Positions 7,699 to 36,070 of a DNA stretch of 39,520 nucleotides are shown one piece after another. Position numbers and translations under genes: made by a program. The notes beneath the pieces are model-generated. The model saw only the letters and a list, made by a program, of their open reading frames with translations. It had not been told where the DNA came from and did no database searches. The stretch is from Lachnospiraceae bacterium (GTDB lineage Bacteria > Bacillota > Clostridia > Lachnospirales > Lachnospiraceae), in assembly GCA_022781985.1 (NCBI GenBank), contig JALESH010000031.1, positions 1 to 39,520 on the forward strand, read 5' to 3'. Every line of letters begins with the position of its first letter. Position 1 is the first letter of the stretch.

Positions 7699-7726
7699 TT
7701 GACAGATTTCTGTCTTGTGATATGAT
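7699..7726 (+). promoter_or_regulatory. Near-perfect sigma-A promoter with extended -10
   Basis: TTGACA (7699-7704), a 16-bp spacer and TATGAT (7721-7726) preceded by TG-A form an extended -10. The predicted transcription start is near 7733, inside the palindrome that follows. It is the evident promoter for the permease and Fur-family genes. Confidence 0.8.
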
Positions 7727-7727
7727 T

Positions 7728-7776
7728 AACCCAGCTATATCTGCAAATGAGTCGCAATTGCAGATATAGCTGGGTT
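7728..7776. promoter_or_regulatory. 19-bp perfect inverted repeat: candidate Fur-family operator and/or terminator
   Basis: AACCCAGCTATATCTGCAA (7728-7746) and its exact complement (7758-7776) flank an 11-nt loop, followed by only four Ts and then mixed AT. As a hairpin it could terminate the SLH gene. However, a consensus promoter begins just before it and would fire into it, which suits an operator better. The centre, TGCAAATGAGTCGCAATTGCA less its last base, resembles Fur-type boxes (TGxxAxT-ATTxxCA on the other strand). The second downstream gene encodes a Fur-family regulator. Confidence 0.6.
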
Positions 7777-7823
7777 TTATATATCTGACTTTATATTTTT
7801 AAAAGAAAGGCAAGGAAAGCTTT

Positions 7824-22715: not shown

Positions 22716-23192
22716 ATGACAAAAGAATTAAAGCAGAAGTATACACTCAAAATCACACAGGCAAATAAGACACAGCTCATTACCATTCTCTATGAAATGC
22801 TCCTGATATATACAGATGAGGCAGAGGAGGCATATGACAGAGAGGATCGGATGGAGTTTAGGGAGTCCATAAGAAAGGCCAGAGGATGTGTAAATGAGCT
22901 TCTGGGCTCGCTTAACTTTGAGTATGAGCTGGCAGCGAATTTTCTGCAGCTGTACCTGTATGTCAACAGGGAGCTGATCAAGGCAGAGGTGCAGAATCAG
23001 AAGGCTCCTCTGGAAAATGCGGAGAAGGTCATTAGAGGTCTCCATGGTGCTTATGAAAAGCTGGAAGTGATGGATACCTCCGGACCTGTCATGCAGAATG
23101 TACAGACCGTTTATGCAGGTCTTACTTACGGAAGGAATCATTTAAATGAGAATCTAGCCGATCAGGGCATTGACCGGGGATTCAGAGCTTAA
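22716..23192 (+). CDS. fliS: Flagellar export chaperone FliS
   Basis: A 158-residue helical protein. The pattern QLITILYEMLLIYTDEAEEA...ESIRKARGCVNELLGSLNFEYELAANFLQLYLYVNRELIKA matches FliS, the cytoplasmic chaperone that binds the flagellin C-terminus before export. Position 31 bp after flagellin fits. AAGGGG is 13-14 nt before the ATG. The C-terminal extension beyond the four-helix core (~residues 125-158) is longer than in the Bacillus protein. The final 39 bp overlap the convergent DUF2508 gene on the other strand. Confidence 0.87.
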   Translation: MTKELKQKYTLKITQANKTQLITILYEMLLIYTDEAEEAYDREDRMEFRESIRKARGCVNELLGSLNFEYELAANFLQLYLYVNRELIKAEVQNQKAPLENAEKVIRGLHGAYEKLEVMDTSGPVMQNVQTVYAGLTYGRNHLNENLADQGIDRGFRA

Positions 23193-23441
23193 ATCTTCTT
23201 CAGGCAGCGAATTGATTTTCGCTGCCTGTTCCAATAAGAACTTATATCTTTTCAGAACAGAGTTTACTTCATATATATAGCAGTCAATCAGATCAGGATC
23301 CGTCACATTATCGAAGCCGGTATAGGCATCCTCCAGTGCCAGGCGGGTTTTATTCAGGTCGGCCAGAATACTGTTTTTTTGAAGTTCTTTTTGATTAATA
23401 GGCTGTGTTGGGTAAGTGGTTTGTTTAAAACATATTTTCAT
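23154..23441 (-). CDS. DUF2508 family protein (YaaL-like)
   Basis: A 95-residue protein. The core NKTRLALEDAYTGFDNVTDPDLIDCYIYEVNSVLKRYKFLLEQA (in parts: DPDLIDCYIYE, RYKFLL) matches DUF2508, which includes B. subtilis YaaL and has no known function. In Bacillus, yaaL lies directly before bofA in the same direction. Here it is next to bofA but points the other way. The start at 23441 is chosen because AAAGGAG is 10 nt upstream; two earlier ATGs are too close to or beyond the ribosome site. Its 3' end overlaps fliS by 39 bp. Confidence 0.78.
   Translation of the reverse strand: MKICFKQTTYPTQPINQKELQKNSILADLNKTRLALEDAYTGFDNVTDPDLIDCYIYEVNSVLKRYKFLLEQAAKINSLPEEDLSSESPVNALIG
23201..23228 (+). 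terminator. Hairpin after fliS, embedded in the convergent gene
   Basis: CAGGCAGCGAA (23201-23211) pairs with TTCGCTGCCTG (23218-23228) to give an 11-bp stem 8 bp beyond the fliS stop. The T tract is poor. It lies within the DUF2508 coding sequence on the other strand, so termination is plausible but not secure. Confidence 0.45.
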
Positions 23442-23593
23442 GTATAGCATGCTCCTTTCAAGGTCTGGAATTACCCAAATATTTCCTCTTTTTCTAAGTA
23501 TAGACACAGTAGGGATAAATATTCATGTAATAAAAAAAAGTACAGGTCATATATTGTAAAACAGAAGCGGCTGAGAGAAAAGGAAATATGTAA

Positions 23594-23866
23594 ATGAATA
23601 ATTATATGGGCGGAATAATGATTGCAGCCTCCTGCGTTGTGGTGCTCTTGATTGGCTCGTTCAGGAGAAAAAAGGAGTGGATCATTAATTTTATATTGAG
23701 AACCGTGGCAGGTACCCTGTCAGTTTTTTTTATCAATGGATTTCTGATCTCTCAGGGAATATCCATTGCAATCGGTATCAATCTTATTACCATATTGACA
23801 TCAGGATTGCTGGGATTTCCAGGGTTGATTATGCTGTATTGCATAAATCTCTATAAATTCCTATAA
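23594..23866 (+). CDS. bofA: Pro-sigma-K processing inhibitor BofA family protein
   Basis: A 90-residue membrane protein with two to three hydrophobic segments. The C-terminal half (IINFILRTVAGTLSVFFINGF, then NLITILTSGLLGFPGLIMLYCINLYKFL, in parts: GLLGFPG) has the conserved N and GLLGxPG features of BofA. BofA restrains the SpoIVFB protease that activates sigma-K in the mother cell during sporulation in Bacillus. In many Clostridia its exact role is less clear. Its presence suggests a spore former. The adjacent DUF2508 gene matches the usual yaaL-bofA pairing, although inverted. AGGA lies upstream of the ATG. Confidence 0.85.
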   Translation: MNNYMGGIMIAASCVVVLLIGSFRRKKEWIINFILRTVAGTLSVFFINGFLISQGISIAIGINLITILTSGLLGFPGLIMLYCINLYKFL

Positions 23867-23902
23867 GTATTTAATAAAAAACTATTCATTGCCTAAAACC
23901 AC

Positions 23903-23931
23903 TGGACAAAACAGGCTTTTTTATCTATAAT
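23903..23931 (+). promoter_or_regulatory. Sigma-A promoter of the Tad/Flp pilus operon
   Basis: TGGACA (23903-23908), a 17-bp spacer and a perfect TATAAT (23926-23931). The predicted start near 23938 leaves a leader of about 128 nt before the prepilin peptidase gene. Confidence 0.75.
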
Positions 23932-23937
23932 TCAGTT

Positions 23938-24065
23938 AACAGTTCAAGATTATCAAATATCCGACTGGGATAAGCAGTATTACAATAAGAGGTCGGATAG
24001 TCCCGGAACAGATAGTCGTTCCAATTTTTCAAAAGGTATCTTTTATAAAATATGCAGAGAAAGGG
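23938..24065 (+). promoter_or_regulatory. Structured 5' leader of the pilus operon: candidate attenuator or riboswitch
   Basis: ATCCGAC (23959-23965) can pair with GTCGGAT (23992-23998). Overlapping it, CTGGGA (23965-23970) can pair with TCCCGG (24001-24006), so the two pairings compete. GGAAC (24005-24009) pairs with GTTCC (24018-24022), followed by AATTTTTC, a weak terminator shape. GATAGTC appears twice (23996-24002, 24011-24017). I cannot match it to the c-di-GMP or other classes I know. Confidence 0.45.
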
Positions 24066-24602
24066 ATGATGTGTATTATTATCATTTTGTTTGTTATGCT
24101 CACAATAGCGGCTGTGACCGATCTCCTCTTTGACAAGGTTTATAATGAGTGGGTTCTTATTGGCGTAACCTGCGGACTGGCCGGTGCGCTATGTAACAAT
24201 GGGGCGGAGGGGCTCCTGTGGGCTTTGATCTCTATGACAGCTCCGGTAATCCTGCTTTATCCCCTGTTTGTAATAGGAGGGCTGGGAGCCGGTGATATCA
24301 AGCTGCTGGCGGCAGCAGGATGCTTTCTTCCTGTAAAGGAAACAATTACATGTCTTGGTATTGCATTTCTGATCGGTGCAGTACTCTCTTTACTGAAAAT
24401 GGCTGCGGAGGGTAATTTTCTGCAGCGGATACAGTATCTGCTATCCTATATTCTGGATGTTTTCAAGAGTGGAGAGTGGAAATTATATGAGCAGGATATG
24501 CAGGCTGCATTCCCTGACAGAAGACGCAGAAATGAAGGAAAGATACATTTCTCCCTGCCCATTTTGCTGAGTGTAGCCATATATAAAGGAGGGGTATTTT
24601 GA
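24066..24602 (+). CDS. Prepilin peptidase (A24 family, TadV/CpaA-like)
   Basis: A 178-residue membrane aspartic protease that cleaves the leader of Flp-type prepilins at the cytoplasmic face. The two catalytic aspartates are in AVTDLLFDKVYNEW and in the GxGD motif (GLGAGDIKLLAAAG). The hydrophobic profile suggests four to five membrane segments. A soluble-looking stretch near residues 135-160 (SGEWKLYEQDMQAAF, DRRRRNEGK) precedes the C-terminal KIHFSLPI segment typical of Gram-positive TadV. It is the first gene of the pilus operon. Its stop overlaps the next start as TTGA. A second, smaller peptidase of the same family occurs at 31700. Confidence 0.87.
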   Translation: MMCIIIILFVMLTIAAVTDLLFDKVYNEWVLIGVTCGLAGALCNNGAEGLLWALISMTAPVILLYPLFVIGGLGAGDIKLLAAAGCFLPVKETITCLGIAFLIGAVLSLLKMAAEGNFLQRIQYLLSYILDVFKSGEWKLYEQDMQAAFPDRRRRNEGKIHFSLPILLSVAIYKGGVF

Positions 24603-25612
24603 TAAATAGAATTTTGGCTCTGTGTGACGAAGAAAAAACCTATCTTTATCACCTGGCAGAATATCTGGAAAGGAAAGAAACGCTGTCCTTTACCGTCCAT
24701 GTGTTCACAGACTATGGACAGCTTGGAAGATTTCTGGAGAATAATGAAATAGAGGTGCTGCTGATTGCTGAAAGGGTATTTCGTGAGGAACTGCTGCTGC
24801 TTCCGGTTCGGCAGATCCTTATTCTGAATGAAAGCGGAATCACAGCAGGCAGCGGAATACAAAATATTAGTAAATATCAGTCCCGTGAAAATATTTTTCG
24901 CGCTTTGATGAATCATTACATGGGAGGTACGGAGGAGGTGCCCCGGAGAGTGGCAAGAGAGGGAAGGATGAAGCTGATCGGGTGCTATACCCCTATAGGC
25001 AGATGTCTGCAAACCACATTTGCACTTTCTATGGGACAGCTTCTTGCCGGAAAGAGCCGGGTGCTTTATCTGAATCTGGAAGGCTGCTCGGGTATGAATT
25101 ATCTCCTTCCAAAAGAATGCTCATCAGATATAACGGATGTACTGTATTTTTTCGGCTGTGAAAGAGAGAAGCTGGCATTCCGAATGGCAGGCATAGTACA
25201 GGCCTTGAATGGAATGGATTATATCCCTCCGGCACGTTTTTGGAAGGATTTGCAGAGTATAAGTGGTGAGCAATGGATTCAGCTGTTCCGAGAGATAGAA
25301 GAGATTACAGACTATGAATACCTGATACTGGATCTGTCGGATCAGGTGAACGGCCTCCTGGAGATACTGAAGGAGTGTTTCCGTATATTTACCATAACCA
25401 GGCAGGAGGAGCATGCAGAAGCCAAGCTGAAGCAGTATGAGTCAGTGGTGCAGTCTATGAATTGTGAAGAAATAGCATTCAGGACAAGCAGGCAGAATCT
25501 GCCCATGTTTCAAAAAGTACCCTCAGATCCGACTCAGCTGATCCGGGGAGAAATCGCAGCCTATGTGAGGAAGGTGATAGAGGAGGAAATCTATGGGTAC
25601 AGTAAAGGATGA
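24599..25612 (+). CDS. TadZ/CpaE-like pilus assembly protein with degenerate P-loop
   Basis: A 337-residue protein with the two-part layout of TadZ/CpaE. The N-terminal ~110 residues form a receiver-like fold (FTVHVFTDYGQLGRFLENNEIEVLLI), followed by a MinD/ParA-like domain. The P-loop position reads TPIGRCLQTTFALSMGQ (residues 131-147), where active relatives have GGCGKT; the lysine and one glycine are missing. The YLILDLSDQ strand corresponds to the DxxP-like switch region. TadZ proteins position the pilus machine at the membrane or cell pole. The start is TTG at 24599, with AAGGAGG 5 nt upstream. It overlaps the previous gene by 4 bp and the next by 20 bp. Confidence 0.75.
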   Translation: MINRILALCDEEKTYLYHLAEYLERKETLSFTVHVFTDYGQLGRFLENNEIEVLLIAERVFREELLLLPVRQILILNESGITAGSGIQNISKYQSRENIFRALMNHYMGGTEEVPRRVAREGRMKLIGCYTPIGRCLQTTFALSMGQLLAGKSRVLYLNLEGCSGMNYLLPKECSSDITDVLYFFGCEREKLAFRMAGIVQALNGMDYIPPARFWKDLQSISGEQWIQLFREIEEITDYEYLILDLSDQVNGLLEILKECFRIFTITRQEEHAEAKLKQYESVVQSMNCEEIAFRTSRQNLPMFQKVPSDPTQLIRGEIAAYVRKVIEEEIYGYSKG

Positions 25613-26846
25613 ATCAGGCCTGAATGCAAGGGAGTGCAGGGAAAGGCTGAGAAGGATGATATTGGACAGGCTGGATTTTTCCAGGGAGATGCGGGATGAG
25701 GAGATCAGGGACATTATAGATGACCTGATTATAAAAGAAAGCAAAGTCTCTGTAATAGATTTGAAGGATAGAAAAAAACTGCGTCAGGAGCTCTTCTATT
25801 CTATAAGAAAGCTGGATATTCTCCAGGAGCTGATTGATGACACCACCATAACTGAAATTATGATAAACGGTACGGAGGAAATTTTCATAGAACGTGATGG
25901 AAAGATTTCCGGCTGCGGTATGGGATTTGACAGCAGGGAAAAGCTGGAGGATGTTATTCAGCAGATTGCGGCCGGCTGCAACAGGACAGTAAATGAAGCT
26001 GCACCCATCGTAGATGCCCGGCTGGAGAATGGATCTAGGGTGAATGTAGTGCTGAGGCCCATAGCCCTGAATGGACCTATTCTGACAATCCGCAGATTTC
26101 CTGATAACCCTATCGCAATGGATGATCTGATAGAAATGGAATCCCTTACCAGGCAAGCGGCAGATTTTCTGGCTGCTCTGGTAAGGGCAAAATACAATAT
26201 TTTTATCAGTGGGGGTACAGGCTCTGGTAAGACTACCTTTCTTAATGTACTTTCCTCCTATATCTCGGGAGATGAAAGGATTATAACCATAGAGGATAGC
26301 GCTGAGCTGCAGATCAGGGGGATTCCAAATATAGTAAGGCTGGAGACCAGGAATGCCAATGTGGAGGGCTGTAAGCCTGTTACTATCCGGGATTTGATTA
26401 AGACCAGCTTGAGAATGAGGCCGGACAGAGTAATTGTGGGGGAGGTCCGGGGAGGCGAGGCCATAGACATGATGCAGTGTCTGAATACAGGACATGACGG
26501 GTCTATGTCTACAGGTCATGCCAACAGTTCTGCAGACATGCTGAGCAGGCTGGAAACCATGGCACTGATGGGAATGGAGCTTCCTCTGCAGGCCATCCGG
26601 CGCCAGATTGCTTCCGGGCTGGATATCATTGTTCATTTAGGGCGGTTGAGAGATAAAACCAGACGAGTATTGGAAATTGTGGAGGTATTGGGCATGGAAG
26701 GCGGGGAAATTAAGACTGCTCCTCTGTTTATGTTCAGGGAGAAGGGAGAGGAGGGCACGAAGGTGCTTGGGACATTAGAAAAAAAAGGAGAGCTGAAAAA
26801 TGATGGAAAGCTTAAAGCGGCGGGTATCCGTCTTTTACAGGAATGA
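25593..26846 (+). CDS. cpaF: CpaF/TadA-family pilus secretion ATPase
   Basis: A 417-residue hexameric secretion ATPase that powers Flp pilus assembly. An N-terminal helical domain (~1-100) leads to the RecA-like core with Walker A GGTGSGKTT (about residues 207-215), the Asp-box (IITIEDSAEL), Walker B (RVIVGEVRGGEAIDMM) and the His-box (GHDGSMSTGHANSS). All catalytic motifs are intact, so this is the motor of the system. The GAGGAGG ribosome site sits inside the end of the TadZ gene. It overlaps tadB by 47 bp. Confidence 0.95.
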   Translation: MGTVKDESGLNARECRERLRRMILDRLDFSREMRDEEIRDIIDDLIIKESKVSVIDLKDRKKLRQELFYSIRKLDILQELIDDTTITEIMINGTEEIFIERDGKISGCGMGFDSREKLEDVIQQIAAGCNRTVNEAAPIVDARLENGSRVNVVLRPIALNGPILTIRRFPDNPIAMDDLIEMESLTRQAADFLAALVRAKYNIFISGGTGSGKTTFLNVLSSYISGDERIITIEDSAELQIRGIPNIVRLETRNANVEGCKPVTIRDLIKTSLRMRPDRVIVGEVRGGEAIDMMQCLNTGHDGSMSTGHANSSADMLSRLETMALMGMELPLQAIRRQIASGLDIIVHLGRLRDKTRRVLEIVEVLGMEGGEIKTAPLFMFREKGEEGTKVLGTLEKKGELKNDGKLKAAGIRLLQE

Positions 26847-27576
26847 TATGGGCTTGGCAATAAGGAGGAAGGATCGGCTGAGGTATATGCTGGAGGGCTG
26901 TCTTCTGATGCTGCTTCTTTCATTGTTCTTTTACCGTTCCTTATGGGCATTGCCTTTTTTATCCCCCCTTTATTTTCTGTACTGCAGAGAAAGAAAAAAG
27001 TTTTTAAAAAGAAAATACGAAAGGGAAACCACAATGCAGTTTAAGGATGCCATATTGGCACTGGCAGCCAATCTGAGGTCCGGCTATTCCGTGGAGAATG
27101 CCTTTAAACAGGCTTACAGAGACATGGAGCTTTTATATGGCAGGGAGAGTATCATTTGCAGAGAATTTTACAGCATGATCATGGGGCTTGGAAATAACCT
27201 GATTCTGGAGGAAATGCTGTATGAGTTTGGAAGACGGAGCGGGGCAGAGGACATCAGGGAATTTGCAGAGGTTTTTGCAGCAGCAAAAAGAAATGGCGGC
27301 AATCTGACTGAGATCATCGAGAGAAGCGCAGCCATAATCTCTGATAAGGTGGAAACGGAAAAGGAAATTGAGGTATTACTCAGTGCCAGGAGAATGGAGC
27401 AGAAGATCATGAATATGGTGCCTTTCGGGATCTTATTTTACATAAGCGCCACTTCGGCAGGATATTTTGACATTCTGTACCATAATATACCGGGAATCCT
27501 GATTATGACAGCTTGTCTGGGTACCTATGCCGGAGCTGTCTTCCTGTCAGGAAAAATAGTAAATATCCAGATATAA
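26800..27576 (+). CDS. tadB: TadB-like inner membrane platform protein
   Basis: A 258-residue protein of the type II secretion F superfamily. Two hydrophobic segments near residues 30-65 come first. The cytoplasmic T2SSF domain follows (MQFKDAILALAANLRSGYSVENAFKQAYRDM; EMLYEFGRRSGAEDIREFAEVFAAAKRNGGNLTEII, in parts: LRSGYSVENAF, AAKRNGGNL). Two more membrane segments lie at the C-terminus. TadB and TadC form the platform that couples the CpaF motor to pilin insertion. AAGGAGAG precedes the ATG, within the 3' end of cpaF. Confidence 0.88.
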   Translation: MMESLKRRVSVFYRNDMGLAIRRKDRLRYMLEGCLLMLLLSLFFYRSLWALPFLSPLYFLYCRERKKFLKRKYERETTMQFKDAILALAANLRSGYSVENAFKQAYRDMELLYGRESIICREFYSMIMGLGNNLILEEMLYEFGRRSGAEDIREFAEVFAAAKRNGGNLTEIIERSAAIISDKVETEKEIEVLLSARRMEQKIMNMVPFGILFYISATSAGYFDILYHNIPGILIMTACLGTYAGAVFLSGKIVNIQI

Positions 27577-27598
27577 GGCTGAGCAGGAGGGCTCCGAG

Positions 27599-27626
27599 CT
27601 TTGGAAGGAGGGTGGTTGTAGGTATG
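27599..27626 (+). promoter_or_regulatory. Extended ribosome-site module, copy 1 (tadC)
   Basis: CTTTGGAAGGAGGGTGGTT is followed by GTAGGT and then ATG at 27624. GGAAGGAG lies exactly 13 nt before the ATG, as in the copies at 32617 and 36550. An in-frame GTG inside the module is too close to the GGAG to be the likely start. Confidence 0.7.
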
Positions 27627-29081
27627 ATGATACTGTATGTGCTGATAGCAGTTCTGTATGCTGTTTTGTGGGTGGCATCTGTCAGATTTGGAGACTGTCC
27701 CGGAGACAGAAGCGGATTTGGCCGAATGGCAGAGTATGCTTATATTTTTTTAAGAAAAAAAGGTATGTGCCAGAGCAGAGAGGTGAGAGAAGGACTGTGT
27801 GCAGTATGTCCGGAGATGGAAGCCGGGAGGCAGGAGGAGCATCATCTCAGAGAGTATTATGTAAAAAAGCTTCGTTTTGTACTTTTAATGGTTTTTATGG
27901 GAAATCTGTCTGCTGCCTGTCTGTGCATTGCCGGCAGGCTGGAAAGCAGTCTGGAGGAGGGCAGGTATATTGACAGGAACAGCTATGGGCTGGGAAGCGA
28001 GGAAGCGGATTTACGGGCAGAAATCACCGGAGGGGAGAAAAAAAGTGAGGAGTTTAGGATTGTGATTGAGGAGCAGCAGTATGAGGAGGCCGTGATACGG
28101 AAGATGGCAGAGGAGGTCAGGGACATTCTGCCGGATGCTGTATTAGGCAGTAATGTTTCCCTGGAGGAGGTGAGAAGCGACTTAAACCTGCCGGACAGTG
28201 TGGAGGGATATCCTTTTCGAATTACCTGGGAAAGCGATAACTATGCCCGCATATATTCTGACGGCAGTGTCATGAATGAAGGGCTTGAGAAAGGAGGTGA
28301 GGCTGTAAGGCTGACGGCAATACTGAGCTGCGGTACTTATAGGGAAGAGCTGATGGTTCCTGTCCATGTGTATCCGCCGATGTATTCACAGGATGAGCTG
28401 CTTAGGAGAAAGATATATGAGGCATTGGTTGAGCAGGAAAAGGCAGACAGAAGCAGAAAGGAGATTCGGCTTCCGGAAAAAGTGGATGGGAAAACTCTGA
28501 TATGGAGCAGGAAACAGGAAGACAGCAGCGGATATTTGCTTTTCTTGGCAGGGATCGGCGCGGCAGCAATGTATCTGTCGGGAGACAAGGAGCTGAGAAA
28601 GAAAGTCAGCAGGAGAAATCGTCAGATGTTGTCCGACTACCCACAGCTTGTTACCAGATTTATTCTGTACCTGGGAGCCGGTATGACCATGAGGAATGCC
28701 TTCAGAAAGATTGCTTTTGATTACAAAAAGGGACGGGAGGAAGGAGGGCACCGTTATGTTTATGAGGAAATGCTGCTTACCTGTCATGAGCTGGACAGCG
28801 GAATTTCTGAGGCTTTGGCATATGAACATTTCGGAAAGAGATGCAGGCTGCCACAGTATAATAAATTTGCCAATTTGCTGGCTCAAGGTCTGAAAAAGGG
28901 CAGCAGCGGACTGCTGGAGGAGCTTCGGCATGAATCAAAAATTGCCTTTGAGGATCGGAGAAACCTGGCGAAAAAGCTGGGCGAGGAGGCTGGGACAACA
29001 CTTCTTCTGCCCATGATGCTGATGCTTGGCATAGTTATGGTATTGATTATGATACCTGCATATTTTAGTTTTTCGATTTAA
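27624..29081 (+). CDS. tadC: TadC-like platform protein with extracytoplasmic Ig-like insertion
   Basis: A 485-residue protein. The C-terminal third (PQLVTRFILYLGAGMTMRNAFRKIAFDYKKG...LTCHELDSGISEALAYEHFGKRCRLPQYNKFANLLAQGLKKG, in parts: LGAGMTMRNAF, GLKKGSSGL) is the T2SSF domain of TadC, ending in a membrane helix. Unlike ordinary TadC (~300 residues), it carries about 190 extra residues between membrane helices near 85-107 and 297-315. This part contains FRITWESDNYARIYSDGSVMN and VRLTAILSCGTYREELMVPVHV (in parts ITWESD, DGSV), which resembles atrophied bacterial Ig domains, with a second partial copy after it (KTLIWSRKQ). The start at 27624 is set by the module upstream; the frame extends back into tadB without support. 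Confidence 0.8.
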   Translation: MMILYVLIAVLYAVLWVASVRFGDCPGDRSGFGRMAEYAYIFLRKKGMCQSREVREGLCAVCPEMEAGRQEEHHLREYYVKKLRFVLLMVFMGNLSAACLCIAGRLESSLEEGRYIDRNSYGLGSEEADLRAEITGGEKKSEEFRIVIEEQQYEEAVIRKMAEEVRDILPDAVLGSNVSLEEVRSDLNLPDSVEGYPFRITWESDNYARIYSDGSVMNEGLEKGGEAVRLTAILSCGTYREELMVPVHVYPPMYSQDELLRRKIYEALVEQEKADRSRKEIRLPEKVDGKTLIWSRKQEDSSGYLLFLAGIGAAAMYLSGDKELRKKVSRRNRQMLSDYPQLVTRFILYLGAGMTMRNAFRKIAFDYKKGREEGGHRYVYEEMLLTCHELDSGISEALAYEHFGKRCRLPQYNKFANLLAQGLKKGSSGLLEELRHESKIAFEDRRNLAKKLGEEAGTTLLLPMMLMLGIVMVLIMIPAYFSFSI

Positions 29082-29106
29082 AGTTAAAAGGAAGGAGTAG
29101 TGTTCA

Positions 29107-29295
29107 ATGATGAAGAATGGACTAAAGAATTTCAAAGATTTTATTTTAGAAGAAAAAGGGCTTGGGACTGTAGAAATTATCCTGATCCTCGTGGTTTTGA
29201 TAGGCCTTGTACTTATTTTTAAGAAGCAGCTTCGTTCCCTGGTGACAGATGTATTTAATAAGATTACGGAAGACAGCAATGCGGTCATGTCATAA
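29107..29295 (+). CDS. Flp-type type IVb prepilin
   Basis: A 62-residue precursor of the major pilus subunit. A basic leader of 18 residues ends in G, followed by LGTVEIILILVVLIGLVLIFK. The cleavage-site glycine and the glutamate at mature position 5 match the prepilin rule (G, then E5), and a hydrophobic helix follows. After processing by one of the two A24 peptidases in the operon, the mature pilin would be about 44 residues, typical for Flp. GGAAGGAG lies 9 nt before the ATG. The last 17 bp overlap the next gene. Confidence 0.88.
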   Translation: MMKNGLKNFKDFILEEKGLGTVEIILILVVLIGLVLIFKKQLRSLVTDVFNKITEDSNAVMS

Positions 29296-30724
29296 AAAGG
29301 GCTATCTTACTCTGTATTTGTCGCTGTGTCTGACGCTGATTTTGTCTTTTGTCCTGACAGTACTGGAGGGTGCAAGGCGCAGTACTGTCAGGATGGAAGG
29401 AGAGTGTGCGGCAGACATTGGGATGAACAGTATTCTGGCAGAGTATCACAGGGAATTATTGGAGCAATATGATCTCTTGTTTGTGGATATGTCGTATGGA
29501 ACGTCCATGCCGGAAATAGAAAATACTGCGCAGCATCTCAGAGCTTATATACAGAAAAACGCAGAGAGCACCAGCATGGGGATGGTTTCCCCCAGAGACT
29601 GGCTGGGCCTTTCTGTGGATAAGGCCCGGATCATGGAGATTTCCATCGCTTCTGATGCAGGGGGCAATGTGATGAAGCGGCAGGCATTGGAATACATGAA
29701 GAGCTTTTCTGCAGAAGGGATTCTGGTGGAGTTGCTGGACAAAACTGCGGTGATGGATACCCTTGGCTTTGACAGCAGGGATATCACCGCAGAGCGCAGC
29801 GAGATACAGTCTCAGATAGAAAGGACAGAGCTGCCTTTGACGGAGGATGAAAACGGACAGCAGATAGAAATGGAACTGAATAATCCGGCCGATCATGTTA
29901 ATCGATTCAGAAACAGCTTTCTTCTAGGATTGATCTTAGGCGATACCTCTCCCATTTCAGGAAATGTTGTCCGTCAGGAGGATTATATATCACAAAGGGC
30001 GAAAATAACAGGGAATGGACTTGCTCCTGGTTATAAGGAGCCGGGAGGGGCGGCAGATGACCTGCTGTTTGACTGCTATCTTTTTGATAAGTGCGGCTGG
30101 TATGGAAATGAGAGGGAGAAGTCCCTGTTGAAATATCAGATCGAATACATAATAGCAGGCAAAGCCTCAGATATGGAGAATCTGGAGCAGGTAGCAAAAA
30201 GGCTTGTAGGATGGAGGGAGGTAGCAAATGTTGTATATCTGTTTTCTGACGCCGTCAAATGCGGTGAGGCAGAGGCCTTGGCCAATAGCCTTACTGCAGT
30301 GCTCCTGGTACCTGAGCTGGCACAGCCGGTTAAATATGCGATCCTGTTTGCCTGGGCATATGTGGAAAGCCTTACAGATGTAAAATGTCTGCTGCAGGGA
30401 GGAAGGGTTCCGCTGATCAAAACCTCGGCTGACTGGAGGACGGATCTGGACAGTGTCCTGGATTTTTCAGGAGAGCTTTCAGCATCAGGGGACGGAGGAA
30501 ATGGCATGGATTATAAGGATTATTTGAGAGTTATGCTGTTTCTGGAAGGGAATGTCCGTAAAAATATGAGAGCCATGGATCTTATGGAAATGGATATCCG
30601 GCAAACTCCGGGCAATTCCCAATTCCGAATGGATGCCTGTTTTGAAAGCTTTCTGGCTGAGATGTCGATTTCCAGTGCCTTTGGATACAGACTGGATCTA
30701 CAGAAACGATATGGTTATCATTAA
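29279..30724 (+). CDS. DUF5702-type pilus-associated membrane protein
   Basis: A 481-residue protein with a short basic N-terminus and one membrane helix (YLTLYLSLCLTLILSFVLTVLEGARRS, in parts: LSLCLTLILSF). A large extracytoplasmic region follows with no recognised enzymatic motif. The helix followed by EGARRS, and the position after the Flp pilin, match the proteins annotated DUF5702 in Lachnospiraceae Tad loci. A minor pseudopilin or TadG-like role is an inference. The region near residues 325-375 is hydrophobic (ALANSLTAVLLVPELAQPVKYAILFAWAYVE, in parts). The ATG at 29279 lies inside the pilin gene; an upstream in-frame ATG at 29249 lacks a ribosome site. Confidence 0.7.
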   Translation: MRSCHKKGYLTLYLSLCLTLILSFVLTVLEGARRSTVRMEGECAADIGMNSILAEYHRELLEQYDLLFVDMSYGTSMPEIENTAQHLRAYIQKNAESTSMGMVSPRDWLGLSVDKARIMEISIASDAGGNVMKRQALEYMKSFSAEGILVELLDKTAVMDTLGFDSRDITAERSEIQSQIERTELPLTEDENGQQIEMELNNPADHVNRFRNSFLLGLILGDTSPISGNVVRQEDYISQRAKITGNGLAPGYKEPGGAADDLLFDCYLFDKCGWYGNEREKSLLKYQIEYIIAGKASDMENLEQVAKRLVGWREVANVVYLFSDAVKCGEAEALANSLTAVLLVPELAQPVKYAILFAWAYVESLTDVKCLLQGGRVPLIKTSADWRTDLDSVLDFSGELSASGDGGNGMDYKDYLRVMLFLEGNVRKNMRAMDLMEMDIRQTPGNSQFRMDACFESFLAEMSISSAFGYRLDLQKRYGYH

Positions 30725-30747
30725 ACAGAGCTATACCCAAAATACAG

Positions 30748-30908
30748 GAAGGAGAAAAAGAACGATGTCCTCTTTTCGGAGTCTGAAAAGTAACTATAAA
30801 ACATTAATTAAAACATTAATTTCTCCGGGCAAAAATCTATTTTATCATCACATCTTAAAACACAGGTCTTTTATTGCCGAAAAGAGGATGTCGTTCTTTT
30901 TCTCCTTC
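30748..30908. repeat. 32-bp imperfect inverted repeat enclosing 97 bp
   Basis: The arm 30748-30779 and the reverse complement of 30877-30908 match at 30 of 32 positions. The mismatches are two adjacent bases in the middle (TG in the left arm against CA). The left arm contains most of the ribosome site and the ATG (30765) of the TadE-like gene. The right arm contains a second in-frame ATG (30888). In RNA the arms could form a long stem over the start; in DNA they could support inversion of the 97-bp interior. Confidence 0.85.
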
Positions 30909-31709
30909 TGCCCTCCTGCATTAAAAGCAAGCATGGCAGTGGAGGCAGCAATAGCCGTACCTCTTTTTCTCTTCTTTTTTATGAGCATCCTATTTGCCTT
31001 CGATGCACTTCGACTGCACGGAAATCTTATGGCAGCCTTGCATCAGACGGGAAATCGGATGGCACTTTATGGGTATGCATACCGTCAGTTGAGTGCAGGG
31101 GAGGAGGCATTGCCGGGAGGGCTGGGCTCTTTCATGTTCTCAGAGGGCTATGCCCGGAAGGAGGTTATTGATTATCTCGGGGCAGAATATCTGGATCATA
31201 CCTGTCTGGCGGCAGGAACCAGGGGGCTTCATTTTTTAAGGTCATCAGTAATGCAGGAAAATGAAGTGATAGAGCTGGTGGCTTCTTACAGAGTGCAGCC
31301 TTTTATTACATTTTTTGGATTAACAGATTTTCCAATGGAAAACAGATACTATGGAAGAGCCTGGACGGGATATGATGTAGAAGGCAGAAATGAAAGCGGA
31401 GAGGAGGATGTCCTGGTTTATGTTGCAGAGAATGGTACAGTATATCATATTTCCCGGGGCTGTACCTATCTTAATCCGTCAATAGAAGCAGTGGCTCATG
31501 CTGCCGTGGGCAGTATGAGGAACGAAAATGGAGAGAAATATTATTCCTGCGACAGATGCAGTACATATGCATATCAGGCAGTGGTATATATAACCAGACA
31601 GGGGAATAGGGTTCATGGTTCCGTGGACTGCTCCGGTTTAAGGCGGACTGTCCATGCAGTCAGGCTGTCTCAGATAAAAGGAAAGGGAAGGTGTACAAAA
31701 TGTGGGTAA
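30765..31709 (+). CDS. TadE-like pseudopilin with unusual N-terminal extension
   Basis: A 314-residue protein. The TadE signature, ALKASMAVEAAIAVPLFLFFF, begins near residue 52; normally this motif lies within 10-20 residues of the start. The extracytoplasmic part ends in two segments that look metal- or disulfide-binding (VYHISRGCTYLNPSIE...CDRCSTY; VHGSVDCSGLRR...CTKCG). The start at 30765 has GGAAGGAG 10 nt upstream and adds 41 residues encoded by the inverted-repeat interior. The in-frame ATG at 30888 (MSFFFSFCPPALKAS) would give a more typical TadE start but lacks a good ribosome site. It overlaps the next gene by 10 bp. Confidence 0.75.
   Translation: MSSFRSLKSNYKTLIKTLISPGKNLFYHHILKHRSFIAEKRMSFFFSFCPPALKASMAVEAAIAVPLFLFFFMSILFAFDALRLHGNLMAALHQTGNRMALYGYAYRQLSAGEEALPGGLGSFMFSEGYARKEVIDYLGAEYLDHTCLAAGTRGLHFLRSSVMQENEVIELVASYRVQPFITFFGLTDFPMENRYYGRAWTGYDVEGRNESGEEDVLVYVAENGTVYHISRGCTYLNPSIEAVAHAAVGSMRNENGEKYYSCDRCSTYAYQAVVYITRQGNRVHGSVDCSGLRRTVHAVRLSQIKGKGRCTKCG
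30798..30821 (+). repeat. Tandem 12-bp repeat inside the inverted-repeat interior
   Basis: AAAACATTAATT occurs twice back to back (30798-30809, 30810-30821). It encodes KTLI-KTLI in the forward frame. Confidence 0.8.
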
Positions 31710-32122
31710 TTGCCGGCAGCTTTATGGCAGTATGCTCGATTATTGATATAAAGAAAAAGGAAATTCCGCTGCCCCTGATTGGATTCTTTGCGGCAGCAGC
31801 CGTAGTCTGTTCCGTAGTCTTTGGAGCAGGGGGATGGGAGGCATTTCTTTTTTCTCTGATCCCGGGAAGCTGTCTGCTGCTCCTTGGCCTGTGCACCAGG
31901 GAAAGCATCGGCTATGGAGACGGTCTTCTGGTTCTTGTTTTGGGAATCATATTGGGGCCGGAAAAATGTCTGATGACAGTGGGGACAGGGCTGGCAGCTT
32001 CGTCAATTTATGCATTGGCTTTGTTGGTTTGCCGTAAAGCCGATGGAAGGAGCAGGCTTCCGTTTGTGCCCTTTTTAACGTTAGGATTGGGGGTTACATT
32101 TATTGTATGGAATAAAATGTAG
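31700..32122 (+). CDS. Second prepilin peptidase (A24 family)
   Basis: A 140-residue membrane protein with the aspartate motif SIIDIKKKEIPLPL and the GxGD motif ESIGYGDGLLVLVLG. These mark it as an A24 leader peptidase smaller than the one at 24066. It lacks any N-terminal methylase domain. The GGxGD-type sequence (GYGDG) differs from the GAGDIK of the first peptidase, so the two may handle different substrates, for example Flp and the TadE-like pseudopilins. The ATG at 31700 is chosen over GTG 31691 from the spacing to GGGAAGG. It overlaps the genes on both sides. Confidence 0.82.
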   Translation: MWVIAGSFMAVCSIIDIKKKEIPLPLIGFFAAAAVVCSVVFGAGGWEAFLFSLIPGSCLLLLGLCTRESIGYGDGLLVLVLGIILGPEKCLMTVGTGLAASSIYALALLVCRKADGRSRLPFVPFLTLGLGVTFIVWNKM

Positions 32123-32576
32123 GAAGGTGGGGGGATTTTTTACAGTAGAGGCTGCAGTGATCGTTCCCCTTACTATTTTTCTTTTTTGCTTTCTTTTTTA
32201 TCTGACATTTTATTTGTACAACAGATGCGTCGTTTCGCAGGATGCCTATCTGTTGGCATTCAGGGGAAGCTTGCATTGTCATTTGTATCCGGAAGAAATA
32301 GAGCAGTATGTACTGGAACAGAGCGAGCTGAAGATGGGAAGAAAGTATATTGCTCTGAACGGACTGATCAGTGCAGTGGAAGCAGATGCTGAAAAAGTAA
32401 CAGTAAAAGCCACAGGCGGGATGAAGACATCTTTTACCGGTCAGTTTCTCCATCAGCAGTACTGGAATCTGTCGATAGAGCGGGAAGCGGGGAAAATGTG
32501 TCCCGCAGAATTTATAAGAACGGCCCGGCTGATGAAAAAAATTCATGATGGGCAGATAAACAGTAAGGAAAAATGA
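32103..32576 (+). CDS. Second TadE-like pseudopilin
   Basis: A protein of up to 157 residues with a class-III-like signal: GGFFTVEAAVIVPLTIFLFCFLFYLTFYLY, in parts VGGFFTVEAA then the hydrophobic helix. A glycine precedes FFTVE, placing a glutamate at mature position 5, and a membrane helix and a ~120-residue extracytoplasmic domain follow. The start is uncertain. TTG at 32103 overlaps the peptidase gene and has a G-rich stretch 11 nt upstream; GTG at 32127 has AGGAAG immediately before it, too close for normal initiation. It lies between the second prepilin peptidase and the FHA protein in the Tad operon. Confidence 0.72.
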   Translation: MYGIKCRKVGGFFTVEAAVIVPLTIFLFCFLFYLTFYLYNRCVVSQDAYLLAFRGSLHCHLYPEEIEQYVLEQSELKMGRKYIALNGLISAVEADAEKVTVKATGGMKTSFTGQFLHQQYWNLSIEREAGKMCPAEFIRTARLMKKIHDGQINSKEK

Positions 32577-32616
32577 AAGGATCAGCAGATTTTGTATTAT
32601 GCAGAAAATATGGGGA

Positions 32617-32644
32617 CTTTGGAAGGAGCGTGGTTACAGAAATG
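32617..32644 (+). promoter_or_regulatory. Extended ribosome-site module, copy 2 (FHA gene)
   Basis: CTTTGGAAGGAGCGTGGTT is followed by ACAGAA and then ATG at 32642, with the same 13-nt spacing from GGAAGGAG as copies 1 and 3. Confidence 0.7.
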
Positions 32645-33982
32645 TTAAATATAAAATATCATAAGGACCTGAATCATAATTATATGATCATCAAAGCTGA
32701 TATAGATGGACAAAAACCGAATTATCAGCACAGAATGATAACAGATAACAGGATTAAGCATCTGTTATCCTGTAAAATCAAATATGTAGATGGGAAAACC
32801 CACTTTTATTATGAAATTAGTTCAAGGCAAAGCCTTCGGTCTTTATTTGAAAGAAAAGCACTGGGGTATGAACAGCTTTTTCATCTTTTTGAGCAGATTG
32901 GAGAGGCGTCCCGGGAACTGGAAAATTTTATGCTTGACAGCCGGTGTCTGGTCTTGCATCCGGAGCATATCTATGTGGAGCCTGAGACGGAAGAATATTT
33001 TTTTCTGTATTATCCAGATTATGCAGAGTCAGGAGCTGAAAATACTGATTATGCCTTATTGGCTGAGTTTTTGGTAGAGAGAGTGGAGCATGAGCAGGAG
33101 GAAGCGGTTTCAGCAGCATACAGGGTTTATGAGCTGATCCAGGATGGCACACTCATCCTGTCTGAAATTTTTAAGATTTTCGATATGTCAAAAGCAGAAA
33201 AAACTGAGGGAGAAGAAGCAGAGCCTGTGCAGGAAGAAGTCAAAGTACTTTGGGAGGGGGAGGAAAAGGCTGCAGGAAATGAGTGCACTTGTGAAGATGA
33301 AGACAGGCAGGCGGCGCGTAGCCTATGGCCGTCGGGAGTTGTGGCTTTTCTCTGTATGGCAGGTGCAGCGGGCATTTTCTGTCTGTTGTATTACTGCCCT
33401 TTGTCAGAACGGGAGAGGCTGCTGTCCACAGTGGGGATTATACTCTTAACACTTCTGTCAGCGTTATTTTTACTATATTTCATTGTTAATATTATAAAAT
33501 ATCAGAAGTGTCATGTCCAAGGCAGGGGGGCAGGCGGTGCGATGGAAGAAAAGGTCATGTTTTCAAAAAGAGGCGGGTGTACCGAGCAGAACTCATATAG
33601 CGGACATCCCCTCCCTGAGCCTGCAAAACCGGCAGAGCAGCCGGAGGAATATGGAAATACGGTTTTCATGGAGTCATCCTTATGCAGAAAGGAAAATAAG
33701 CTGTATGGAACGAATAAGGGGAACAAATATCACATAGACCTGGATCGCCTTCCATGTACGGTAGGAAAACTGGCAGGCAGTGTGGATGTGGTAATCAGGG
33801 ACAGTACTGTCAGCCGTATACATGCCAGATTCACCGAGAGGGAATCAGGAATATACGTGACGGATTTAAATTCTACGAATGGTACGTTTAAAAATGGACT
33901 TCGCCTGGATCCGAATGAGACGGTACTCATTGAACAGGGAGACGAGCTGAGATTCGGCAAAATGACATTCTGCTATAGATGA
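32642..33982 (+). CDS. DUF6382/FHA-domain membrane protein
   Basis: A 446-residue protein. Residues ~1-175 match the DUF6382 domain often found before FHA in Clostridia (IKYHKDLNHNYMII...LLSCKIKYVDGKTHFYYEIS). Two membrane helices follow near residues 235-285. The C-terminal ~90 residues form an FHA phosphothreonine-binding domain with its hallmark residues: VGK, SRIHARF and DLNSTNGTFKNG. FHA domains are found in Gram-positive Tad loci and could link pilus assembly to Ser/Thr kinase signalling; that link is an inference because no kinase is encoded here. The start at 32642 is set by the upstream module, although the frame is open to 32573. It is the last clear gene of the pilus operon. Confidence 0.85.
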   Translation: MLNIKYHKDLNHNYMIIKADIDGQKPNYQHRMITDNRIKHLLSCKIKYVDGKTHFYYEISSRQSLRSLFERKALGYEQLFHLFEQIGEASRELENFMLDSRCLVLHPEHIYVEPETEEYFFLYYPDYAESGAENTDYALLAEFLVERVEHEQEEAVSAAYRVYELIQDGTLILSEIFKIFDMSKAEKTEGEEAEPVQEEVKVLWEGEEKAAGNECTCEDEDRQAARSLWPSGVVAFLCMAGAAGIFCLLYYCPLSERERLLSTVGIILLTLLSALFLLYFIVNIIKYQKCHVQGRGAGGAMEEKVMFSKRGGCTEQNSYSGHPLPEPAKPAEQPEEYGNTVFMESSLCRKENKLYGTNKGNKYHIDLDRLPCTVGKLAGSVDVVIRDSTVSRIHARFTERESGIYVTDLNSTNGTFKNGLRLDPNETVLIEQGDELRFGKMTFCYR

Positions 33983-34056
33983 GCATTGACAGCCACAAAA
34001 GGAAATGCTAACCTTTACCATAACACATACTATTTTTTGGTTGAATGGGAGAGGAT

Positions 34057-35094
34057 ATGGTACAACAGCAGCTGGCTGATTTTCTGATGGAGGAAGGATA
34101 CCGGGAGGTTCCTTCCAATCTGCCGGAATTCACGATATATTTCCTGATGGAAAATAATTATGTAAATGTTCTTCATGTGATCAACTATCAGAAAAATATG
34201 TATATTACCGAGGATCAGCATTTGCATATGAAAGAGAAGATAAAGCTGTTTTTTGCAGAAAAGGGAATAAAGGAGGTTCATATACTTTCTCTGATTATCT
34301 GCGGAGATCTGAATAAAGCCAGTCAGTTCTGTACGGGAGATGCCCTGACCTGGGTAATAGATCCCTATTGCAACCGCCTTGTCATTTTTGAAAACCAGGT
34401 TGGCGAATTTTATGGCATGCGGAATAAGCTGGAAAATTTTTTGAACAGGCTTCCTGATGAAGCACAGAATGAAAGGCCGCGGGATCCGGCCAGGTGGATT
34501 CCATATATGACGATATCCTTAGTGGCAATAAATGTACTGATTTTTATCATATGTACATTTACTGATGATTTGTTATATAATATAGGTGCTTTCAGCGCAC
34601 GTGGCTTTTTGGAAGAAAAAAAATATTACAGGATATTGACCAGTATTTTCTTGCACTGGGATCTTCAGCATCTGGCAGGCAATATGCTTGTCCTATACTA
34701 TTTGGGAGAGGTAGTTGAAAAGCATTTTGGGCGTGTGGGTTATTGCCTCATTTATCTGGTATCAGGAATCAGCGGTAATTTCTTGTCTATGCAGCATGAG
34801 CTGCATATGGTGTCCAATATTCGTTCTGTCGGCGCCAGCGGGGCAGTTTTTGGTGTAATGGGTTCATTAGTCATTATGGTGTTCCGTTACAAAGGACGTC
34901 TGAAACAGATAAATATGGGAAGGCTGGTCTTTATGATCGCATATTCCCTATACAGCGGATTTACAGCCGGCAATGTAAATAATGCCGCGCATGTGGGGGG
35001 CTTGGTAGGCGGCATTGTCTCAGCGTCTGTAGTCCAGCTATGGGAACTGATGAAGGAAAAATTAAGCAGAAATGAGGGAAGACATGAAAATTAA
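34057..35094 (+). CDS. Rhomboid-family intramembrane serine protease
   Basis: A 345-residue protein with a ~145-residue soluble N-terminal domain and a six- or seven-helix rhomboid core. The catalytic serine is in GASGAVFG (S261), the histidine in NNAAHVGGLVGG (H312), and the oxyanion-region asparagine in HLAGNM (N209). It cleaves substrates within or near the membrane; the substrate here is unknown. ATG 34057 is chosen over 34045 because GGGAG lies 5 nt before it. A weak promoter (TTGACA at 33986-33991) may lie between it and the FHA gene, but no terminator is seen, so readthrough from the pilus operon is possible. It overlaps the next gene by 11 bp. Confidence 0.9.
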   Translation: MVQQQLADFLMEEGYREVPSNLPEFTIYFLMENNYVNVLHVINYQKNMYITEDQHLHMKEKIKLFFAEKGIKEVHILSLIICGDLNKASQFCTGDALTWVIDPYCNRLVIFENQVGEFYGMRNKLENFLNRLPDEAQNERPRDPARWIPYMTISLVAINVLIFIICTFTDDLLYNIGAFSARGFLEEKKYYRILTSIFLHWDLQHLAGNMLVLYYLGEVVEKHFGRVGYCLIYLVSGISGNFLSMQHELHMVSNIRSVGASGAVFGVMGSLVIMVFRYKGRLKQINMGRLVFMIAYSLYSGFTAGNVNNAAHVGGLVGGIVSASVVQLWELMKEKLSRNEGRHEN

Positions 35095-36070
35095 TATTTA
35101 TTACGGCGGAAGAGGTCTCATCGATGATCCTACTTTATTTGTAATAAACAAAATGCAGGAGGTATTGGAAGAACTTCGGGTAGAGGTGAAGAGATTCAAT
35201 TTACAGGAGCTGAAAAACAGCATCACCACCCTGCCCCAGACTCTCAAGGAGGCGGATGGCATTATTCTGGCTACGACCATAGAGTGGCATGGAATAGGAG
35301 GATACATGCAGCAGTTTCTGGATTCCTGCTGGCTGTATGGCGACAAAGAAAAGATAAGCACTACCTACATGTGTCCGGTAGTAATTTCAACCACCTACGG
35401 AGAGAGGGAGGGAAAGCTGGATCTGCTTTCTGCCTGGGAGATCCTCGGAGGAAGACCCTGCAGCGGAGTCTGCGGCTATATAGCAGATATCTCTATTATG
35501 GAGGATAATAAGGAATATATTGCCCTGATAGAGAAGAAAGCTGAAAATATGTACCGGACTGTCAACCAGAAAATTGTCAGCCTTCCGGCTAGTAATCAGG
35601 CAATCAGACAGATGGTTTCCAGAACCCAGATTGATCTGACTCCACAGGAGTCTGAACAGCTGTCCAGGTATGCTTCAGATGATAAATATGTACAGCAGCA
35701 AAAGGAAGATATCCAAGAGCTGACCTGTATGTTCAGAGATATGATGGGAAATGTGGAAATGGAAGAAAGCGAAGGGATTATTGCCGGGTTCCAGCAGCAT
35801 TTCAAACCTGGGGCAGGAGTGAAATGCAATTACAGGCTTGTCATTGGGGGAAAGAAAAATCTTATTATTCGTGTGTACGGTACAGAGCTGGAATGCACTT
35901 TTGGCAACCTTGAGCATGCAGATGTGGAGCTTCAGCTGGAGCGAAGGGTTTTGGATGAGATTATGAATGGCAGGATGACTTTCCAGAGGGCATTTATGTC
36001 AGGAGAAATGAAAATGAAAGGAGATTTTAAAGCACTCCGTGCATTGGATCAGATTTTTGTATTTGATTGA
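35084..36070 (+). CDS. Flavodoxin-like oxidoreductase fused to an SCP2 sterol-carrier domain
   Basis: A 328-residue cytoplasmic protein. Residues ~1-160 have the flavodoxin/NADPH-dependent FMN reductase fold (INIYYGGRG...ADGIILATTIEWHGIGGYMQQFLDSCW...VVISTTYGEREG). The C-terminal ~100 residues match SCP2 (LIIRVYGTELECTFGNLEHADVELQLERRVLDEIMNGRMTFQRAFMSGEMKMKGDFKALRALDQIF, in parts: VLDEIMNG, FMSGEMKMKGD). SCP2 domains bind hydrophobic ligands, so a flavin redox step on a lipid-like molecule is possible but unproven. ATG 35084 has GAGGG 5 nt upstream. It overlaps the rhomboid gene by 11 bp. Confidence 0.8.
   Translation: MKINIYYGGRGLIDDPTLFVINKMQEVLEELRVEVKRFNLQELKNSITTLPQTLKEADGIILATTIEWHGIGGYMQQFLDSCWLYGDKEKISTTYMCPVVISTTYGEREGKLDLLSAWEILGGRPCSGVCGYIADISIMEDNKEYIALIEKKAENMYRTVNQKIVSLPASNQAIRQMVSRTQIDLTPQESEQLSRYASDDKYVQQQKEDIQELTCMFRDMMGNVEMEESEGIIAGFQQHFKPGAGVKCNYRLVIGGKKNLIIRVYGTELECTFGNLEHADVELQLERRVLDEIMNGRMTFQRAFMSGEMKMKGDFKALRALDQIFVFD

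Follow-up and report, generated by a model that had tools for sequence, protein, structure and literature searches.

Why does the start codon of a pilus gene lie inside a long, nearly perfect inverted repeat? The question is raised by a locus in the window (the whole stretch of 39,520 nt of Lachnospiraceae DNA that was analysed), where the two arms of such a repeat enclose the first codons of a TadE-like pseudopilin gene. A stem so long and so well kept over a start codon was unexpected. An earlier note on this DNA had proposed either an invertible switch or a translation-blocking hairpin. The RNA hairpin has stood, with arms that covary and sense-RNA pairing that is selected, whereas the invertible switch has not, given a single orientation in the 13 congeners that carry the element, an excess of G.U pairs and a Pfam scan of 30 window ORFs that showed no recombinase. 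We lean towards reading the element as a translational latch, which would leave the start open on RNA still being made and close when the 3' arm is complete.

The inverted repeat and its operon

The repeat consists of two 32-nt arms that are complementary at 30 of 32 positions and lie 97 nt apart, as originally described (Table 1), and it is far beyond chance: the best ungapped stem at the locus scored 28, compared with a maximum of 12 in 100 dinucleotide shuffles of the 2001-nt region. Across 231 tiles of the window, the runner-up stem scored 18 and was located at a terminator-like repeat. Most of the ribosome site and the ATG were found in the left arm, and the two unequal bases of the arms are exactly the T and G of that ATG, both in agreement with the earlier note. 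These bases form U.G and G.U pairs in the sense RNA, so an unbroken 32-bp stem covers the ribosome site and the start codon. The RNA of positions 30740–30915 is predicted to fold at 37 °C with -56.6 kcal/mol, which lies at z -7.1 relative to 200 shuffles. An RNA thermometer, which should be only marginally stable and melt close to body temperature, was rejected because the predicted stem is too stable at this energy. No Rfam family matched positions 23000–36000 of the window at gathering score, the only matches being four to miRNA families below threshold, and none matched ten related loci.

Table 1. Positions of the stem, the pseudopilin gene and neighbouring genes in the window
Feature	Positions	Strand	Remark
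Flp1-like pilin gene	29107–29295		part of the tad operon in the window
Upstream gene, DUF5702	29249–30724	+	stop 23 nt before the left arm
Left (5') arm of stem	30748–30779	+	holds ribosome-binding site and start codon
Shine-Dalgarno AAGGAG	30749–30754	+	within the left arm, paired in the stem
ATG start codon	30765–30767	+	paired; T and G give U.G and G.U pairs
Predicted prepilin leader, 55 codons	30765–30929	+	up to KA|SMAVEA; cleavage inferred from the motif
TadE-like pseudopilin gene	30765–31709	+	prepilin motif; TadE PF07811 below cut-off
Loop, 97 nt	30780–30876	+	taken to belong to the leader; codon positions give no signal in the genus
Loop motif TCTCCGGGCA	30822–30831	+	its TCCGGGCA identical in 13/13 congeners
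Right (3') arm of stem	30877–30908	+	in the leader-coding region; 18 nt separate its end from the codon of the predicted cleavage residue
A24 prepilin peptidase gene (TadV-like)	31691–32122	+	presumed remover of the leader

The tad-type pilus operon in the window encodes an A24 prepilin peptidase, a TadZ-like protein (just under its Pfam cut-off), a T2SSE ATPase, two T2SSF proteins, a Flp1-like pilin, a DUF5702 protein and the TadE-like protein. It also encodes another A24 peptidase, an additional TadE-like protein that stays below cut-off, and an FHA protein. Tad operons of Gram-positive bacteria are treated in the available text of PMC3244431. The cluster thus has two A24 prepilin peptidase genes, one at its start (24066–24602) and one directly after the TadE-like gene. 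The second T2SSF (TadC-like) protein (27513–29081) looks unusual in that an aBig_2 domain (atrophied bacterial Ig domain) precedes its T2SSF domain.

The TadE-like protein matched no Pfam family at E 0.001 and no NCBIfam family; PF07811 (TadE) reached E 0.033, below its cut-off, and when E values up to 0.1 were admitted the same family was found in 9 of 18 aligned members (best 1.2e-6). We assigned it as a TadE-like pseudopilin on its type IV prepilin motif KA|SMAVEAAIAVPLFLFFFM, with E at +5 and a hydrophobic stretch thereafter. This motif starts only at residue 54, and the long N-terminal extension that the earlier note had remarked on is indeed present.

Conservation of the stem in the genus and the family

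The protein was used to search 61 genomes, including the window's own. Thirteen of the 16 genomes of the window's genus have the gene, and all 13 carry the stem; the three genomes without the element (G006, G007 and G013) also lacked a protein match. The comparison with related genomes that had been proposed was run on the 13 congeners, using a MAFFT alignment made without structure. The arms diverge in sequence but with compensatory pairing changes, as expected of a hairpin that sequesters a ribosome-binding site: 16 of the 32 pairs had changed on both sides (48 cells), and 96.6% of the 416 cells were paired, while slid registers paired 54–63%. None of 500 shuffles equalled the alignment in the number of paired cells, in the numbers of pairs and of cells with changes in both arms, or in covariation score. 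Further pair types in the genus alignment showed no excess (26 vs 27.7 in shuffles).

A genus model of the element (R1) detected one sense copy per genome in 13 genomes, only at this gene. Its antisense hits fell at the same places as the sense hits, and a genome outside the window's family gave two weak hits, with E 0.0044 and 0.008, in a scan run with stricter filters under which weak copies can be lost. A mobile element or MITE was rejected on this single sense copy, present in 13 of the 16 genomes and always at the same gene.

The TadE-like gene was found in 286 of the 299 family genomes searched (one per genus); 121 of the 286 were retrieved, mostly from the better-scoring part of the list, and 118 were analysed. 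Rows in which the script did not find the prepilin motif (L049, L129 and L146) and duplicate rows (L001–L003, L034, L039, L040, L042, L045 and L051) were dropped. The tested set comprised 135 loci, 134 from Lachnospiraceae and one (L032) from another family. Stems beyond the maximum of 2025 shuffles were present at 112 of the 135 loci (112 of 134 in the family), with 20 to 49 positions in the family (median 28; 32 bp in the window). Of the remaining family loci, 10 had no comparable stem (score ≤11) and 12 had a weak one only. Seven further loci from the window's family gave stem scores of 14–20.

The stem is specific to this place. Among 57 loci with long flanks, 48 had a strong stem here and only 1 of 997 windows had one elsewhere; in 52 of the 57, this place outscored all the other windows of the locus. 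Other families of the order were represented by 24 genomes with a match, of which 14 were tested here and L032 was part of the main set. At these 14 TadE-like loci, stem scores did not exceed 11, and the closest candidate start lay 9–30 nt ahead of the cleavage residue; two sequences from other families, L178 and L180, agree in motif and in best stem and are perhaps near-copies.

Position and accessibility of the start codon

With a start taken as an in-frame codon with a Shine-Dalgarno-like match of at least 3 nt, an ad hoc and loose scoring, the best start lay within the left arm in 79 of the 112 stems (type A), usually 13–18 nt into the arm. In 64 of these 79, no other in-frame ATG or GTG with a match of at least 4 followed the arm. 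The remaining best starts were in the loop (19 loci, type B), downstream of the stem (9) or unclear (5). In L070 and L082, an ATG in the left arm begins an upstream frame of 45 codons whose stop is at the right-arm end, the ATG of L070 being without a Shine-Dalgarno match. The stem persists in the 28 loci that have their start elsewhere than in the left arm; this is the chief finding against start-blocking as its sole role.

The predicted mean unpaired probability of the start codon was 0.01 in the 79 type A loci and 0.40 in 11 loci with scores ≤12, and accessibility was ordinary in the 28 loci with loop or downstream starts (means 0.37 and 0.49, respectively). For the window's Shine-Dalgarno site, the mean over the surrounding 10 nt was 0.00 once the right arm was complete. 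In the finished mRNA, both the Shine-Dalgarno site and the start are accordingly predicted to be paired in the window and, on average, in the type A loci, as in a hairpin that sequesters the ribosome-binding site. Growing transcripts were modelled for 66 type A loci (the window's genus counted once) by equilibrium folding of truncated RNAs. The unpaired probability of the start was 0.42–0.49 until the right arm began and 0.02 once it was complete; in the window, it fell from 0.93 to 0.41–0.48 during loop synthesis, before the right arm, and to 0.01 with the right arm.

The distance from the upstream stop to the stem had a median of 9 nt and a range of -13 to 105 nt (48 long-flank loci, 13 of them congeners). 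Translational coupling to the upstream stop was rejected as a general rule because of this variable spacing, and would be at most a local aid.

The latch that we favour would work as follows. In the finished mRNA, the near-perfect stem would pair the ribosome site and the start with a segment slightly more than 100 nt downstream and thereby close the start. As long as the 3' arm is untranscribed, access to the start would be close to that of ordinary starts and ribosomes could load on the nascent RNA, and a ribosome crossing the 3' arm would also hold the stem apart for the next one. Such a use-it-or-lose-it latch might keep a minor pilin low or conditional inside the tad operon, and its price would be a leader of about 55 residues. 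A kinetic latch is the simplest mechanism suggested by the folds of truncated RNAs; repression, kinetic opening, leader removal and a binding role of the loop motif are what we infer here. In our judgement, the stems are longer and more perfect than start-blocking should need, which counts against the latch. The same holds for the 28 starts outside the left arm, for the family loci with a weak stem or none, for the lack of excess in further pair types and for the early fall in openness of the start in the window.

The leading rival, and a serious one that we regard as possible, is that the stem serves above all for processing of the tad operon mRNA by RNase III. Cleavage would separate the upstream from the downstream tad genes, destroy a TadE-like start lying in the arm or loop and possibly set free a small RNA consisting of the loop with its UCUCC motif. 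RNase III processing stems are long stretches of uninterrupted double-stranded RNA, of about 20 bp or more, and in pre-rRNA and operon mRNAs they form a long near-perfect stem closing a large loop. The element resembles these in its long near-perfect stem and large loop, cleavage being hypothetical here: an uninterrupted helix of at least 20 bp is present in 77 of the 112 stems and one of at least 22 bp in 70, that of the window measuring 32 bp, and the window's genome encodes RNase III. Retention of the stem in the 28 loci just mentioned, its usual place just past the upstream stop (48 loci, median as above) and the occurrence of the loop motif in some loops outside the TadE-like frame would also fit. 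However, 35 of the 112 stems are without an uninterrupted 20-bp helix and, unlike in known processing stems, most left arms carry the gene's own start, so that processing leaves the starts in 79 of the 112 left arms unexplained.

The latch and RNase III processing may both be true. We consider it doubtful, as a broader combination, that across the family the prepilin leader chiefly encodes an RNA latch in which the stem is at once a gate for the start and a target of RNase III, the UCUCCRGGYA loop acts as or recruits a regulator, and ribosome–polymerase spacing tunes pilus assembly.

The leader and the loop motif

Among eight congeners sharing the frame, codon positions 1, 2 and 3 of the loop differed by 0.25, 0.35 and 0.30, respectively (31 or 32 columns each), and those of the first 42 mature codons by 0.22, 0.04 and 0.53. 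In the genus, the leader loop thus has the appearance of a frame that is kept open around a peptide without constraint. The leader is presumably removed by the prepilin peptidase, to judge from the motif and the neighbouring peptidase gene; if it is cut off, its amino-acid sequence would be free for shaping as RNA.

The loop carries the motif UCUCCRGGYA. Its reading frame differs between congeners L004–L013 and L014–L016, and yet TCCGGGCA is identical in all 13 congeners, which favours a nucleic-acid role. TCTCC-type motifs were enriched in the loops of the family, with CTCTCC in 32 of 99 loops (2.2 expected from shuffles) and TCTCC..G[CT]A in 20 (0.4 expected), where the 99 loops are the 112 minus 12 of the window's genus and one duplicate. 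Of the type A loops, 49 of 79 held TCTCC; the corresponding figures were 3 of 19 for type B and 3 of 9 for type C. In type A loops TCTCC was mostly in one frame (30, 8 and 2), so a peptide motif could explain part of the signal in other genera.

This enrichment, together with the identity of TCCGGGCA despite the frame difference, would fit a switch controlled by binding, in which a protein or small RNA at UCUCCRGGYA opens or stabilises the stem and pilin translation follows a signal. We think such a switch unlikely: the frame bias in type A loops leaves room for a peptide motif, TCTCC is rare in type B loops, no partner was found, and the left arm paired with the loop no better than with shuffled loops (duplex energies, mean z -0.19, n=66). 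The same duplex energies argue against the loop element as a second anti-Shine-Dalgarno sequence competing for the left arm, which had been suggested by eye. For an attenuator or riboswitch, which would hold a conserved rival pairing of the left arm, the partner covered was the loop, with these duplex energies. Complements of the loop motif with at most one mismatch occurred at 11 sites elsewhere in the window against 6.1 expected, 5 of 100 shuffles having as many, with no clear partner among them.

Two further observations concern the loops. TCTCCRGGCA occurs at 28 sites in the window's genome (G000) and the reversed pattern at 2, which may reflect codon usage. The type B locus L117 has a 242-nt loop, compared with 115 nt in the similar L139, with extra inserted-looking sequence and an intact stem.

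Selection on the sense RNA

The stem search scored G.U and A.C alike. The 112 stems contained 2873 Watson–Crick, 282 G.U, 42 A.C and 44 other pairs; G.U outnumbered A.C in 95 loci, A.C was ahead in 3, and they were equal in 14. With about one locus per genus (121 loci, 99 strong; L035–L037 might repeat a genus), the counts were 246 and 31, with G.U ahead in 85 loci and A.C in 2. The one-per-genus and loop-motif counts leave out L005–L016 and L044, whose leader is identical to that of L038. L038 is labelled as an uncultured Bacteroides sp. and L044 belongs to the window's family, so the former is probably a mislabelled assembly.

A hand calculation based on the pair counts shows that arm composition alone would give a G.U to A.C ratio of about 1.4 to 1. 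Since a cause at the DNA level has no strand preference, the large excess of G.U on the sense strand points to selection on the sense mRNA. Selection for pairing in the sense RNA, with arms covarying in relatives, is strongly supported by these sequence comparisons.

The same counts weigh on the explanations acting on DNA. Template switching between the arms, which would keep the repeat perfect without RNA selection and would account for arms that are near-identical inverted copies, is very improbable, because as a strand-neutral process it should not prefer G.U, in either the full or the one-per-genus count, nor would it position an arm across the start, as is seen in 79 of the 112 loci. The invertible DNA switch, in which a recombinase would flip the 97-bp interior to turn the gene on or off, is unsupported and hardly credible: the arm length does fit the 10–40-nt repeats of candidate invertons in the available text of PMC11892184, and the flipped interior with the ATG kept reads MSSFRQ* and stops at codon 7, as the earlier note had worked out, but all 13 congeners with the element, the window included, hold one orientation, arm sequences change together across genera, G.U far exceeds A.C, an imbalance that sites of DNA recombination would not be expected to show, and Pfam profiles detected no recombinase in the 30 window ORFs that were scanned, in line with the earlier observation. 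Like the invertons covered there, the element adjoins a gene for a surface structure and has inverted repeats about 30 nt long; it differs from them in showing no flipped orientation, no recombinase and selected sense-RNA pairing. Inverton surveys based on inverted repeats will catch RNA hairpins, and the count of G.U against A.C tells the two apart.

Relation to known systems

Lachnospiraceae are among the commonest gut bacteria, and a latch of the kind that we favour would give a clean natural system for transcription–translation coupling in little-studied gut bacteria. Among the matches listed in the open-access literature on TadE, tad/Flp pili, structured RNA of Lachnospiraceae and prepilin mRNA structure, the element was undescribed.

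The nearest mechanism found is that of aapA3 of Helicobacter. According to the available text of PMC6733600, which mentions hok and the MS2 5' region beside aapA, the aapA/IsoA type I toxin mRNAs, when finished, have their ribosome site closed by an anti-Shine-Dalgarno sequence that lies far downstream. The two systems share the long-distance closing of the ribosome site and the difference between nascent and finished transcripts. In contrast to aapA as covered there, the closing arm here lies in the leader-coding region, the gene is a pilus gene in an operon, and the stem is much longer; moreover, transient hairpins shut the nascent aapA mRNA, whereas no general pairing between left arm and loop was found here.

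A second parallel is nra of Streptococcus pyogenes, where, in the available text of PMC7079067, a thermosensitive stem-loop in the coding region promotes translation and controls pilus output. In both cases, mRNA structure in the early coding region would tune pilus production. Unlike nra, which is a regulator gene, the stem here covers the start of a pilin-like gene and is predicted to be too stable for a simple thermometer.

Other hairpins in the window

A strong hairpin with perfect 14-nt arms lies within the DUF5702 coding region (29343–29406), where sub-threshold Rfam miRNA matches were also located. It was not conserved as such, the best local stem in 12 congeners being 6–10 compared with 14; L014 and L016 were not covered in this region, and L007 and L008 have arms of 11–12 nt close to that position. 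Another inverted repeat, at positions 7719–7785 (31 nt, 84% complementary, with a loop of 5 nt), adjoins the end of a gene for an S-layer-homology/Ig-repeat protein and is probably a terminator.
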